A stretch of 39,891 bases of DNA from a virus (IMGVR_UViG_3300048834_000180:1-39891); one strand, 5' to 3'; shown: positions 23,803 to 39,891, counted from the first letter of the stretch. The notes: a model not told the origin generated them from the letters alone. Program-made: numbers and translations.

Positions 23803-24484
23803 CCTGAGCAAGCTGTGTGAGGCCGTGCGAAACAACGACTGCGCCGCGATGGTCGCCGCCGCCCGCGAGGTCGCCGCGCAGGCTGACGCCCAGCCCGCCG
23901 TGGCGGATGTACCGGAGGGGTGGGTGATGGTGCCGAAGGTGCCTACGGAGGAAATGCTCCGAGCAATGCTCAAGGAGGCGGGGGGCTGCACCCTCGGGGA
24001 TAGCAGCGGTGAAGTCTACCCGGCCACCGACTTCCCGCAGGCGAAGACCATCTACGCCGCCATGCTCTCCGCCGCCCCCGCAGCGCCGCAGGTGGCTGAT
24101 GACCCGATGCACGAGCAGGTCATGAAGGAGCGCGACGAGTGCGAGGAGGTCATCGACCAAATCCTCGACCTCGTGCTTGGCCCCGACCGCGAGGAGTGGT
24201 CGAGCGCGTACGGCTACGCCGACGCGATCCTCGATGTCGGCGACAGGATGCGCGATCTGGATTACCACCCGGTGCAGGAAGGCGACGGCTATGGCGAAGG
24301 GTGGTCTGGCTGGGCGATTCAGTACCCCGGAAAGCTGCCGAAGCTGTACGGCGCCGAGGAGATTGCCCGGCTGAACTGGGCGCCTGACGCTGGCGCCGAT
24401 CTCGTGCAGCTCGCCGAGGTCGACCGCGTCACCGCCGGCGACTGGCTCGCCGCCGCCAAGCAGGGGGAGGTGTCCCGTGGGTGA
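23795..24484 (+). CDS. Phage protein with WVMVPKxPTEEM motif (229 aa)
   Basis: EGWVMVPKVPTEEMLRAMLKEAG is a widespread early-phage motif of unknown role. Then YPATDFPQAKTIYAAMLSAAP, an acidic helical centre (ERDECEEVIDQILDLVLG) and a Trp/Gly-rich region (GYGEGWSGWAIQYPGKLP). It looks like a fusion of several small modules. No catalytic motif. Confidence 0.65.
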   Translation: MADLSKLCEAVRNNDCAAMVAAAREVAAQADAQPAVADVPEGWVMVPKVPTEEMLRAMLKEAGGCTLGDSSGEVYPATDFPQAKTIYAAMLSAAPAAPQVADDPMHEQVMKERDECEEVIDQILDLVLGPDREEWSSAYGYADAILDVGDRMRDLDYHPVQEGDGYGEGWSGWAIQYPGKLPKLYGAEEIARLNWAPDAGADLVQLAEVDRVTAGDWLAAAKQGEVSRG

Positions 24485-24797
24485 GCATCTGGAACCGTGC
24501 CCGTTCTGCGGCTGGCAGCCGCCATACGACGACGAGGATTCCATGCTCGACGTGATGTATCCGACCGGCATCTACTGGCGCGAAGAAAAGTCATTCGTAC
24601 CCGGGCCGTTCACAGGCATGTTGCGCCGCAAGTACGTCCGCCGAGACGAACGGAAGGATGCCGACACCCCCTGCATCGGGATGCACTGCACCGAGAATAT
24701 GGGCGGCTGCGGGGCACAGATCGTGCGCGACAGCCGCGAGGAGGCTGCTGCGGCGTGGAACCGGCGCCCGAGCAAGCCGGGGGAGGTGGGGCGATGA
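24477..24797 (+). CDS. Lar-like restriction alleviation protein
   Basis: 106 residues with a GTG start. LEPCPFCG at the N-terminus, then C-x4-HC...GGCGAQIV and the terminal EEAAAAWNRRP are the Lar/ restriction-alleviation family signature (two CxxC-type zinc pairs and A-x2-AWNRR). Lar of the Rac prophage modifies type I restriction. Together with the Mom-like gene this is a second probable anti-restriction function. Confidence 0.75.
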   Translation: MGEHLEPCPFCGWQPPYDDEDSMLDVMYPTGIYWREEKSFVPGPFTGMLRRKYVRRDERKDADTPCIGMHCTENMGGCGAQIVRDSREEAAAAWNRRPSKPGEVGR

Positions 24798-24810: not shown

Positions 24811-25017
24811 GTGAAATGGACGCGCCTTAGCGAGTGGTGCGTGCAATCATCCTGCCTCCGCTACACAATCACCAAGAGCGGGCCACCGAATGCTTTGGTG
24901 TTCCAAGCGTGGCGCGGTAAGGCGCTGCTATTGACAACGCCAGCGGGCCATGATGAAGTCGAGGCCAAGCGGCAATGTGCCGCGATTTGCAGTAAAGACT
25001 TGGAGGGTCACGAATGA
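24811..25017 (+). CDS. Small phage protein (68 aa), start possibly frameshifted
   Basis: From GTG 24811: KWTRLSEWCVQSSCLRYTITK, then FQAWRGKALLLTTPAG and EAKRQCAAICSKDLEGHE, a family of short early-phage proteins usually starting M-x-W-T-R. Just upstream, ATG 24794 (ATGA overlap with the Lar-like gene) opens a six-residue frame, MTWRPA, ending at TGA over the GTG. The natural start may have been lost by a small indel. Confidence 0.55.
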   Translation: MKWTRLSEWCVQSSCLRYTITKSGPPNALVFQAWRGKALLLTTPAGHDEVEAKRQCAAICSKDLEGHE

Positions 25018-25706
25018 ACGAAAACATCAATTCCGTTGTTGCCGAGTGCGAGGCCGTGTTTCGAGTCCTCGATTCCTTTGGACTTGACGATCGCGTCGAG
25101 GCTATCAACACGATCCGCGCCAAGCTGCGCGAATACTCGCCGTTTAAGTCAGAGCCGGTGGATTGCGTCCGCTGGGTGCGATCTGACGCGGTGCAGGCCA
25201 ACGATTACAACCCAAACAGCGTTGCGCCGCCTGAGATGAAGTTGCTGGAACATTCCATCCTTGAGGACGGCTATACGCAGCCTATCGTCACCTGGCGCAA
25301 TGAGGCCAAGTATGAGGTGATCGACGGCTTCCACCGCAACCGCGTCGGCAAAGAGTCCGATCCTGTTCGCGCCCGCGTCATGGGCTTCCTGCCGGTCGTC
25401 GTGGCTAATGACAGCCGCACCGACAAGACCGACCGCATGGCTGCGACGATCCGCCACAATCGCGCGCGCGGTAAGCACAAGGTTGAGTCGATGAGCGAGA
25501 TTGTCATCGAGCTTAAGCGCCGGAACTGGTCGGACTCGCGCATCAGCAAAGAGCTTGGCATGGATGAGGACGAAATCCTGCGCCTCTGCCAGCTTACCGG
25601 CTTGGCCGAGCTTTTCCACGACGAAGACTTTAGCAAGTCGTGGGACATTGACGACTTTGACGATGCATTCATCCCGCTGGAGGACGATGCGGAGGCGCAG
25701 TCGTGA
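25014..25706 (+). CDS. ParB/Srx-fold protein with DGFHR motif (IbrB-like)
   Basis: 230 residues. ParB-like nuclease/kinase fold: VRWVRSDAVQANDYNPNSVAPPEM, HSILEDGYTQPIVTW, YEVIDGFHRNRVGK; the DGFHR at 104-108 replaces the GERR of chromosomal ParB and resembles the D-G-x-H-R of ParB-fold ATPases. A helix-turn-helix follows (ELKRRNWSDSRISKELGM; ILRLCQLTG), and the end is acidic. First of three genes with an unknown protein and a PAPS-reductase-like protein, as in E. coli IbrB/IbrA. Confidence 0.75.
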   Translation: MNENINSVVAECEAVFRVLDSFGLDDRVEAINTIRAKLREYSPFKSEPVDCVRWVRSDAVQANDYNPNSVAPPEMKLLEHSILEDGYTQPIVTWRNEAKYEVIDGFHRNRVGKESDPVRARVMGFLPVVVANDSRTDKTDRMAATIRHNRARGKHKVESMSEIVIELKRRNWSDSRISKELGMDEDEILRLCQLTGLAELFHDEDFSKSWDIDDFDDAFIPLEDDAEAQS

Positions 25707-26128
25707 AGCGCATCTATCACACATGGGACAAGTGGGAGTGCTATCCGGCCGGGTTCTATGAAAACGGATCGCCCGATAAATCGCTGTCTGATGATGATTG
25801 CCTCGAAATGTACCGCGCCTTCCTCGCCAACATTCCGCGATTTGCGGCGGCCCTTGGTCGCGTCGTTAGCGAGTGGCGCAACTCTTGCGAGCATTACCTG
25901 AGCAATGAGCGCATGAACCGTATCGCATGGCTAGGCCAGGCCGCAGCCTGCATTGACATGGGGCTTCCATCCGCCTATCGAGCGGGCTACAATCTGCTCA
26001 CCGATGAGCAAAAGTCCGCCGCCGACGACGCCGCACTTACGGCCCTGAACTTTTGGCTTTTCACTCGCGGCGAGCGCATCCTGACGATGGATGAGGCGCA
26101 GTCTAAAACGGAGGCGAATCTCTACTAA
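25703..26128 (+). CDS. Protein of unknown function within the ParB-PAPS module (141 aa)
   Basis: ATGA overlap with the ParB-like gene and TAATG with the reductase-like gene. YHTWDKWECYPAGFYE at the start, then SNERMNRIAWLGQAAACIDMGLPSAYRAGYNLL, all helical. It recurs between or beside ParB- and PAPS-like genes in other phages as far as I remember, so it is probably a functional partner. Not recognised as an enzyme. Confidence 0.65.
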   Translation: MKRIYHTWDKWECYPAGFYENGSPDKSLSDDDCLEMYRAFLANIPRFAAALGRVVSEWRNSCEHYLSNERMNRIAWLGQAAACIDMGLPSAYRAGYNLLTDEQKSAADDAALTALNFWLFTRGERILTMDEAQSKTEANLY

Positions 26129-27336
26129 TGGCCACGATCAAGAAATATCGGGAACAGAATGTGCTTGACGCGGCCCGCGCCCGTGTTGGCTATGCGTTCG
26201 ATAACTTTGAGCGTATCTATGTCAGCTTTAGCGGCGGAAAGGATTCCAGCGTCATGATGCACCTGGTTCTTTCCGAGGCGCGCAAGCGTGAACGCAAGGT
26301 CGGCGTGCTGATCATTGACCTTGAGGCGCAATACAAGGCTACGGAGGATCATATCCGCGAGGTAGTGGCGGAGTACGCCGACAACATTGAGCTTTACTGG
26401 CTGTGCCTTCCGATGCTGCTCCGGAACGCGCTCACAAACTATGAGCCGCGCTGGCTGTGCTGGGATCCGTCGCGCGAGTCCGATTGGGTGCGCCGCCCGC
26501 CACCCGAGGCCATTACTGACGGCTCCATCTTCGACTTCTATCAGCCGAACATGGAGTTTGAAGAGTTCATGGTGTTGTTCGGTGTCTGGTTCGCGCAGGG
26601 CAAGCAAGCGTGCGGTTTTGTTGGCATCCGCGCAGACGAAAGCCTGAACCGATTCCGCACGATTGCGCAGTCTGACAAGGCAATGCACAACGGCAAGCGG
26701 TTTACCACTGAGGTAGCTGACGGCCTGTTCAATGTTTATCCAATCTATGACTGGCGAACCCAAGACATCTGGCGTTTCCATGCCAAGTATCCCGACCTCG
26801 CCCACAACAGGATCTATGACCTGATGCACAAGGCTGGCGTCCCGCTTAGTCAGCAGCGCCTCTGCCAGCCCTATGGAGACGACCAGCGCCGCGGCTTGTG
26901 GCTCTATCACATCTTGGAGCCTGAAACCTGGTCGCGCGTGGTGGCGCGAGTCAATGGAGCCAACAGCGGCGCGCTCTACATTCAGGAGACCGGCAACATT
27001 ACCGGATACAACAAGATCAGCAAGCCCGAGGGCCATACATGGAAGTCGTTTAGCAACCTTCTTTTGTCGTCACTGCCAAAGAAAACGCGAGACCATTATA
27101 TCAAGCGTTTTCGCTCGTTCCTCGGTGGATGGTACGGTCGCGGCTATAGCTCCGGCATCCCAGACGAAGCGCCGAAGGTTCTTGAGGACAAGCACTGGGC
27201 CCCGTCGTGGCGGCGCGTTGCAAAAGTCCTCCTTCGCAATGACTATTGGTGCAAGGGGCTTGGCCTGACCCAGCCCAAGAGCGAGGCATACGGGCGCTAC
27301 CTTGCACTAAAGAAAACCAAAAGGGCGGAGGCGTGA
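26128..27336 (+). CDS. PAPS reductase/PP-loop ATPase family protein (IbrA-like, DUF3440)
   Basis: 402 residues. The PP-loop is YVSFSGGKDSSVMMHLVL (SGGKDS at 35-40). KVGVLIIDLEAQYKATEDHI, FVGIRADESLNRFRTI, YPIYDWRTQDIWRFHAKYP and a C-terminal DUF3440-like half (RLCQPYGDDQRRGLW; ALYIQETGNITGYNKIS). It would adenylate or thiolate a substrate rather than reduce PAPS. In E. coli, IbrA and the ParB-like IbrB co-activate eib genes; the biochemical reaction is unknown. Confidence 0.85.
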   Translation: MATIKKYREQNVLDAARARVGYAFDNFERIYVSFSGGKDSSVMMHLVLSEARKRERKVGVLIIDLEAQYKATEDHIREVVAEYADNIELYWLCLPMLLRNALTNYEPRWLCWDPSRESDWVRRPPPEAITDGSIFDFYQPNMEFEEFMVLFGVWFAQGKQACGFVGIRADESLNRFRTIAQSDKAMHNGKRFTTEVADGLFNVYPIYDWRTQDIWRFHAKYPDLAHNRIYDLMHKAGVPLSQQRLCQPYGDDQRRGLWLYHILEPETWSRVVARVNGANSGALYIQETGNITGYNKISKPEGHTWKSFSNLLLSSLPKKTRDHYIKRFRSFLGGWYGRGYSSGIPDEAPKVLEDKHWAPSWRRVAKVLLRNDYWCKGLGLTQPKSEAYGRYLALKKTKRAEA

Positions 27337-27737
27337 ATAAGGGCGAATGGATCGTGCGGCACGGCTCGGGTTTCCGTGACGCGCTGGTGCCAATCTTCCG
27401 CGTCCTAGTGGCTATCGGCCAGTCCGCCACGCATCCGGTAAAGGTGTCGTGGCGGCTGCTAGACACGCGGACGCTAGAGCAGAATGCCCGGATGAACGCA
27501 ATGTGCGCGGAGGTGGCTAGCCAAGTCGAATGGCACGGCCAGCGGTTGAGCAAGGATGAGTGGCGGCATATGTTCGTCGCCAGCTATCGCCAGGGGCAAA
27601 AGGTCGTCCCCGGCATCGACGGCGGTTTCGTAGTTCTAGGCGCATCCTCGCGCGACCTGAGCGTTAGCGAGTGCGGCGACCTGATGGAACTTATCGCGGC
27701 CTTTGGGGCCGAGCGTGGCGTGATCTTTAAGGAGTGA
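27333..27737 (+). CDS. ninB: NinB-like recombination protein
   Basis: 134 residues from the GTG at 27333 (GTGA overlap). LLDTRTLEQNARMNAMCAEV, QVEWHGQRLSKDEWRHMFVAS, KVVPGIDGGFVVLG and MELIAAFGAERGV are diagnostic of lambda NinB (Orf), a single-strand DNA binding recombination mediator that can replace RecFOR functions. Complements the ERF and SSB-like genes. Confidence 0.9.
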   Translation: MNKGEWIVRHGSGFRDALVPIFRVLVAIGQSATHPVKVSWRLLDTRTLEQNARMNAMCAEVASQVEWHGQRLSKDEWRHMFVASYRQGQKVVPGIDGGFVVLGASSRDLSVSECGDLMELIAAFGAERGVIFKE

Positions 27738-39750: not shown

Positions 39751-39774
39751 AAACGGCCCCATAAGGGGCCGTTT
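39751..39774. terminator. Bidirectional intrinsic terminator between late and minus cassette genes
   Basis: Ten-bp perfect stem AAACGGCCCC/GGGGCCGTTT with an ATAA loop. On the minus strand the stem is followed by a seven-T run, ending the 859-28 cassette; rightward it ends the capsid operon, so genes from 959 need the promoter near 911. It joins the window ends. Confidence 0.92.
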
Positions 39775-39891
39775 GCTTTCAACTCGAATCTTTAGCAGAC
39801 CGTCAGTTCGCCAAACTTCTCGGTCTGGTGGCCCATCTTGATCTTAGTCTCAAGCACCTTGACCTCGACAGCCATGCTCTGAGAAATTTGA
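39765..39891. repeat. Terminal direct repeat, right copy
   Basis: Identical to bases 1-127; see left copy. Features here duplicate those at the start of the window. Confidence 0.95.

Follow-up and report, generated by a model that had tools for sequence, protein, structure and literature searches.

IbrA and IbrB are known by name, and DNA hypermodification cassettes are known as a kind. In Escherichia coli the pair, encoded in the ECOR-9 island and by phage PhiR5_2 and represented on the chromosome by YbdN and YbdM, consists of a protein with a PP-loop domain and DUF3440 and of a ParB protein with a DGFHR motif, both within one operon; it is known through the activation of eib genes or through repression by CitR. 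Here a locus of the same families, composed of the genes IbrB, X and IbrA, is analyzed within a complete virus genome record from IMG/VR (IMGVR_UViG_3300048834_000180; the window is this entire stretch of 39,891 bp). Its IbrA and IbrB proteins are, respectively, 44% and 49% identical to those of PhiR5_2, and it differs from the E. coli pair both in gene order (IbrA-IbrB in E. coli) and in possessing X. The analysis suggests that IbrB-X-IbrA is probably a phage DNA base-modification (anti-restriction) module, a prediction that draws largely on the genomic surroundings of related genes in other phages.

Several described systems resemble this trio in part. In the 7-deazaguanine DNA modification system of phages a ParB-like nucleoside triphosphatase (NTPase), DpdB, powers base insertion by the base-modifying enzyme DpdA (PMC12839542), and as the Rosebushvirus cassette this system occupies in sister phages the same terminase-side slot as IbrA-IbrB; it differs, however, in that it works with a transglycosylase and the QueC/D/E/FolE pathway and has no PP-loop enzyme, and no DpdA-type transglycosylase was found in the trio or among its family-scanned neighbors. 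The TET/JBP cassettes of phages Acadian and Waleliano, which include a TET-associated glycosyltransferase (TAGT) or an amino acid:DNA transferase (ADDT), likewise hold the slot that IbrA-IbrB holds in phage Phlyer, next to an orthologous ParB gp1, but rely upon oxygenase, glycosyltransferase and aminoacyl-DNA-transferase chemistry and not on a PP-loop. The Dnd/Ssp systems (DndC or SspD with DndB) share with the trio a PP-loop enzyme, a ParB-superfamily partner and the motifs GxRxxES and PIxDW; unlike them, the trio lacks iron-sulfur (Fe-S) cysteines, and their partners DndD/DndE and SspB/SspC were not seen in annotated neighborhoods or among recurrent neighbor clusters. Finally, CysH, CysD, TilS and TtuA share the N-type PP-loop fold with IbrA, which departs from them in lacking the CysH cysteine motif, in its DUF3440 C-terminal half and in its obligate ParB-like partner.

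An initial annotation of the sequence had proposed three translationally coupled genes, and the reading frames were found where it had placed them, joined by start/stop overlaps:

25014..25706, plus strand: IbrB, 230 amino acids (aa), a ParB/sulfiredoxin-fold NTPase-like protein
25014-25017, plus strand: ATGA overlap into IbrB
25703..26128, plus strand: X, 141 aa, an all-helical third subunit
25703..25706, plus strand: GTGA start/stop overlap between IbrB and X (translational coupling)
26128..27336, plus strand: IbrA, 402 aa, an N-type PP-loop ATPase (phosphoadenosine phosphosulfate (PAPS) reductase/CysD-like) with a C-terminal DUF3440
26126-26130, plus strand: TAATG overlap between X and IbrA

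The PAPS-reductase-like protein with SGGKDS and a DUF3440 half is confirmed as IbrA: it matches DUF3440 (PF11922) at 1.4e-32 (113.4 bits, cut-off 25), PAPS_reduct at 1.6e-13 and phrog_2302 at 1.3e-84, and carries the motifs SGGKDS (residues 35-40), GIRxxESxxR (166-175) and YPIYDWxxxDIW (204-215). Its partner, which matches phrog_2159 at 6e-72 and carries DGFHR at 104-108 and RHNRARGxH at 147-155, falls marginally short of the Pfam cut-off for ParB_N (PF02195; 8.7e-6, 26.1 bits versus 26.3); a profile search of PDB returned ParB/Noc proteins (3.6e-5) and the serine kinase SbnI (0.014), whose DGVHR aligns with the DGFHR of IbrB. The ParB-type fold and DGFHR ascribed to this protein hold; the helix-turn-helix found no confirmation in a family scoring above its cut-off, its sole trace being a sub-threshold match to HTH_Cbp1 (0.0013). 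With its middle gene unassigned, the locus is thus an IbrA/IbrB-type pair plus one, as had been supposed. The catalytic residues are retained throughout: S-x-GKDS occurs in 321/321 unique IbrA sequences (GIRxxESxxR in 320/321) and DGxHR in 319/319 unique IbrB sequences, which rules out their loss in most homologs. In one relative, Flavobacterium phage 6H (L430, 6250-7388), IbrA is annotated in two pieces, gp26 and gp27; a single match spans IbrA in the related phages 1H and 23T, so that the split in 6H may reflect a frameshift or a sequencing error.

To characterize how constant the module is, 412 loci were collected, or 319 after overlaps were merged, with profiles trimmed to single domains because in some cases IbrB and X are fused within one open reading frame. 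Of the viral loci retrieved through IbrA with flanks of 2 kb or more at each end, 71/71 contain IbrB and 69/71 contain X, which is fused to IbrB in roughly half of these close relatives; conversely, IbrA is present in 78/78 viral loci found with IbrB. Cellular loci with such flanks contain IbrB in 60 of 63 cases, and X occurs in only 4 of 80 cellular loci. Sequenced phage records tell the same story for the pair, with 216 matches to IbrA and 221 to IbrB and near-equal numbers genus by genus (90/90 for Flavobacterium, 55/55 for Mycobacterium and 21/21 for Streptococcus); Lactobacillus phages are also among the carriers, and IbrA-IbrB occurs in islands and bacterial chromosomes as well. Because this co-occurrence is near-obligate, IbrA-IbrB constitutes the core of the module, and X is a lineage-specific accessory subunit. 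Hence, the expectation that the genes would not occur independently holds for the pair but not for X, which hardly any cellular relative possesses, and a constant three-gene order is contradicted by the arrangements observed: IbrB-X-IbrA in 83 groups, a single IbrB=X reading frame followed by IbrA in 92, X-IbrA-IbrB in 22, and IbrA-IbrB without X. Nevertheless, recurrence of the genes across hundreds of independent contigs, with conservation of order and of residues, indicates that the trio is not a chance association.

X itself, as had been anticipated, is unassignable: nothing scores above a Pfam cut-off, and there is no PHROG, NCBIfam or PADLOC match. It is modeled as a helix bundle (predicted local distance difference test score (pLDDT) 94.1) for which neither sequence-profile searches nor Foldseek found a fold match in PDB (best E 3.1). 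Residues E12, W58, G78 and A111 are invariant, and in the fused reading frames X joins the C-terminus of IbrB, from which it follows that X is physically tied to IbrB. Since its C-terminal tail, SKTEANLY, is kept in close relatives despite predicted disorder, the model suggests that this tail may be a docking peptide. In ten loci that lack X (e.g., L203, 7597-8010, and L172, 5059-5868, plus eight others) a protein of about 135 aa, in which a KANSxGSRG motif is conserved, is encoded immediately 5' of IbrA; by profile comparison this protein is unrelated to X (E 0.07, probability 0.8%).

The evidence that bears most directly on function comes from a comparison of the left genome ends of cluster-B mycobacteriophages and of one Gordonia relative. 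There, an orthologous ParB gp1 (pairwise identity mostly 47-62%) and an orthologous terminase (55-63% identity to that of Phlyer) mark a slot whose contents are exchanged between phages: Blocker23 (Rosebushvirus) has DpdA, QueC/D/E and FolE; Acadian has TET/JBP and TAGT (6.5e-38); Waleliano has TET/JBP and ADDT (1.4e-8); Phlyer has IbrA and IbrB; and the B1 phage ThreeOh3D2 has no cassette. Blocker23 stands in here for Rosebush, a member of the same genus in which the product of the B2 slot has been established experimentally: its DNA carries dPreQ0 at about 28% of G (PMC6884629). Given these cassettes and the dPreQ0 of Rosebush, the slot holds DNA-modification cassettes, among which is IbrA-IbrB.

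The corresponding slot of Gordonia phage Ligma contains ParB, an ABC-ATPase/GNAT fusion and a formyltransferase-like gene (L428, 1-2452), and possibly represents another undescribed DNA-modification cassette. The gp2 genes of Acadian (L425, 813-1691) and Waleliano (L426, 785-1759), which lie beside TAGT or ADDT, belong to phrog_6059, a family named 'queuine tRNA-ribosyltransferase' that matches Pfam Tet_JBP below threshold (1.4e-4, 5.5e-6); judging from these matches and from that position, phrog_6059 is probably a mislabeled TET/JBP oxygenase family. In Fusobacterium phage phiFN37 (L198, 10763-13072) a second ParB-like gene is followed by a DpdA-like, queuine-transglycosylase-like gene and by a transporter for queuosine precursors, with IbrA-IbrB some 3 kb away, so that a single phage harbors two cassettes of ParB plus base modification.

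Operon partners point in the same direction as the slot. A small GNAT acetyltransferase family lies within the operon in 22/22 groups that have it--separating IbrA from IbrB or X from IbrA, or else following closely--in Clostridia, Proteobacteria, Bacteroidales and viruses; when this family served as the query, 6/6 viral loci had IbrB, X and IbrA adjoining, and no relatives were found by tblastn in isolated phage genomes. In the Microbacterium phages Hendrix, Rasputia and Leaf (Rogerhendrixvirus), IbrA ends a cassette of glycosyltransferase(s), acetyltransferase and methyltransferase, upstream of which are tRNA genes; at the left end of Hendrix, IbrB and further ParBs precede the terminase. 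A methyltransferase, of the same PHROG family in either case, lies beside IbrA in the IbrA-IbrB loci of Salgado (an Arthrobacter phage) and 022DV001 (a Bacillus phage). An SNF2-type helicase was considered as a fixed fourth component and rejected; it is adjacent in 17/24 groups and is, therefore, an optional partner. The operonic GNATs of Clostridia (L245, L256, L264 and L272) lack the acetyl-CoA-binding RxxGxG while keeping an N-terminal FFGSRxxxKE...YDDxxKxW motif; to judge from this pattern, they possibly use a different donor or play a non-catalytic role. The initial suggestion that the trio might act by modifying nucleic acid or by countering the defenses of the host thus gains strong contextual support from the swap slot and from the modifying-enzyme neighbors, a context that belongs to distant homologs.

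From these relationships the following mechanism may be envisioned. The module would be expressed with replication and recombination genes, so that progeny DNA is shielded from host restriction. IbrA would use ATP bound at its PP-loop to adenylate a carbonyl-type oxygen on a DNA nucleobase or on a small precursor, after which AMP would be displaced by a nucleophile that is probably not sulfur but an amine. The role of IbrB, the obligate partner, would resemble that of DpdB toward DpdA: it would bind or hydrolyze nucleotide and link this to the engagement of DNA. X would be an accessory subunit, helical and attached to IbrB, and the product would in other lineages be decorated further by an acetyltransferase, a methyltransferase or glycosyltransferases. 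More tentatively--and here we would expect to be wrong more often than right--the system might constitute a kind of DNA modification not described before: a PP-loop enzyme would use ATP to activate the carbonyl of a nucleobase in DNA, in the manner of lysidine synthase, and add an amine-bearing group under licensing by a DGxHR ParB-type NTPase, with optional acetylation, methylation or glycosylation. Such a system would be distributed over at least 216 phage records and would exist in silent form on enterobacterial chromosomes (ybdNM). No DNA-modification proposal was found in literature on IbrA/IbrB, DUF3440, YbdM/YbdN or PAPS reductase with hypermodification; nor did the literature searched contain the DNA-modification assignment, the pairing statistics, the fusion and new fold of X, or the link to GNAT.

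Several observations weigh against DNA base modification. Slot occupancy holds for distant cluster-B homologs and not for the source locus itself, and those homologs, like the ones from Microbacterium phages, are just 25-31% identical to the IbrA of the trio; because of this distance, and because the modification is predicted only, confidence in this interpretation is moderate, and it is by analogy that we carry the function over to the source phage. Moreover, no glycosyl-, methyl- or acetyltransferase adjoins the trio in the source phage, and C246 and C375, a potential sign of sulfur chemistry, occur together in 266/321 IbrA sequences (83%). The family also has a chromosomal form in E. coli, the ybdNM operon, which is not known to go with a corresponding DNA modification. 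Genetically, the E. coli pair is known only as an activator of eib genes; the activation of prophage eib genes is named in the title of a 2002 paper by Sandt et al., to which PMC10434257 refers, though such activation could arise secondarily, from changes in the DNA. In addition, when loss of citR derepresses ybdNM in E. coli, the cys regulon is induced, a possible hint of sulfur use: deletion of citR/ybdO raises ybdN and ybdM (log2 5.5 and 2.5) and switches on the cys regulon in its entirety together with flagellar genes, other genes changing as well. This sulfur response, left unexplained there (PMC9068703), could reflect either a demand for sulfur or an indirect effect.

The eib phenotype leads to the alternative that the pair modifies RNA or tRNA in the manner of TilS, or that it co-activates transcription of late or lysogenic-conversion genes. 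Besides the activation of prophage eib genes, this notion is favored by the chromosomal ybdNM copy of enterobacteria, by the tRNA genes 5' of the Rogerhendrixvirus cassette, and by TilS/MesJ and TtuA being fold relatives of IbrA, insofar as they share the PP-loop fold only. A mere regulator, however, would not need PP-loop chemistry kept in all homologs; the related genes occupy a DNA-modification slot, with terminases, helicases and recombination genes nearby; and a regulatory effect can follow secondarily from modified DNA. Taken together, these points make this alternative unlikely.

A second alternative is that IbrA, like DndC, SspD or TtcA, inserts sulfur into DNA (as phosphorothioate or a thiobase) or into tRNA, with host IscS as the source and with IbrB regulating in the manner of DndB. 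A relation to the Dnd systems was part of the initial annotation, and in its favor the nearest defense-protein profile to IbrA is that of DndC (4e-7), whose partner DndB belongs to the ParB superfamily; the cys-regulon response and the C246/C375 pair could be read likewise. The IbrA model (pLDDT 86.8) retrieves PAPS reductases, CysD, FAD synthase, TtuA, MesJ/TilS and LarE, with CysH the best match, so that two sulfurtransferases (TtuA and LarE) are included. CysH requires its active-site cysteine. DndC depends on Fe-S cysteines, of which C280 is indispensable (PMC11662687). The 321 IbrA sequences, on the other hand, contain no invariant cysteine: the most conserved columns reach 0.86 (C375), 0.79 (C246) and 0.75 (C93) as against 1.00 for PP-loop residues, C93, C111, C246 and C375 occur all together in 177/321, and CxxC occurs in 2/321. 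The IbrA of Hendrix has no cysteine at all, with SGGKDS intact, and its Rasputia and Leaf relatives have one. Inasmuch as CysH-type and DndC-type enzymes need cysteines that the Hendrix protein lacks, thiol- or Fe-S-based sulfur transfer is not a requirement of the family; Fe-S or cysteine-persulfide chemistry as a general need was rejected, each cysteine having been lost independently. Nor were DndD/DndE or SspB/SspC found among annotated or family-scanned neighbors (not every neighbor was scanned with PADLOC), and operonic GNAT, glycosyltransferase and methyltransferase partners suit base decoration better. The Dnd connection is thereby weakened and sulfur transfer appears improbable; adenylation followed by attack of a non-sulfur nucleophile, we infer, suits IbrA better.

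It is very unlikely that the trio acts in host takeover, defense or superinfection exclusion, guarding the lysogen or killing or inhibiting rivals while leaving its own DNA unmarked: although ParB-like NTPases occur in the effectors SspE, DndI and GmrSD, and IbrA-IbrB occurs also in islands and bacterial chromosomes, the trio has no nuclease or other effector domain, matches no defense family beyond the common PP-loop domain, and is located in a replication/recombination region. An auxiliary metabolic PAPS reductase (cysH-type) paired with a plasmid-like ParB partition protein, as PHROG and GenBank labels ('phosphoadenosine phosphosulfate reductase', 'ParB-like partition protein') and the top fold match to CysH would have it, can be dismissed with near certainty, in that the CysH-type motif CG[LIVM]H occurs in 1/321 IbrA sequences and the canonical ParB motif GERR in 0/319 IbrB sequences, NCBIfam scores lie far under their cut-offs (e.g., 27 versus 154 bits for CysH/CysD and 21.3 versus 58.45 bits for ParB TIGR00180), and parA was not seen adjoining the trio.

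DNA base modification thus being the interpretation preferred here, the setting of the trio within its own genome may be considered. An exact direct terminal repeat of 127 bp (1-127 and 39765-39891) indicates that the phage genome is complete (circular or terminally redundant), and its gene content is siphophage-like, with a tape measure, a terminase, an O-like replication protein, a DnaB helicase, NinB and a dCMP deaminase. The trio sits in the replication/recombination region, flanked by:

24477..24797, plus strand: small Lar-like (restriction alleviation) protein (PF14354 at 1.2e-4 and TIGR03655 at 3.6e-7, both under curated cut-offs)
27333..27737, plus strand: NinB recombination mediator (PF05772 at 6.9e-32; phrog_72), in the same operon

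A possible GTG start of NinB overlaps the stop of IbrA (GTGA, 27333-27336). The Lar-like protein is a possible operon neighbor, and its sub-threshold match just 5' of the trio is consistent with an anti-restriction region.

IbrA and IbrB, which were named as activators of prophage genes, are thus carried by no fewer than 216 sequenced phage records and, as ybdNM, by enterobacterial chromosomes, E. coli K-12 included. Placement within a hypermodification slot recasts genes labeled 'PAPS reductase' and 'partition protein', which are often counted as sulfur metabolism. If the proposal is true, the module would make a new, ATP-activated modification of DNA bases, of consequence for how phages evade restriction and also for phage biology and epigenetics.

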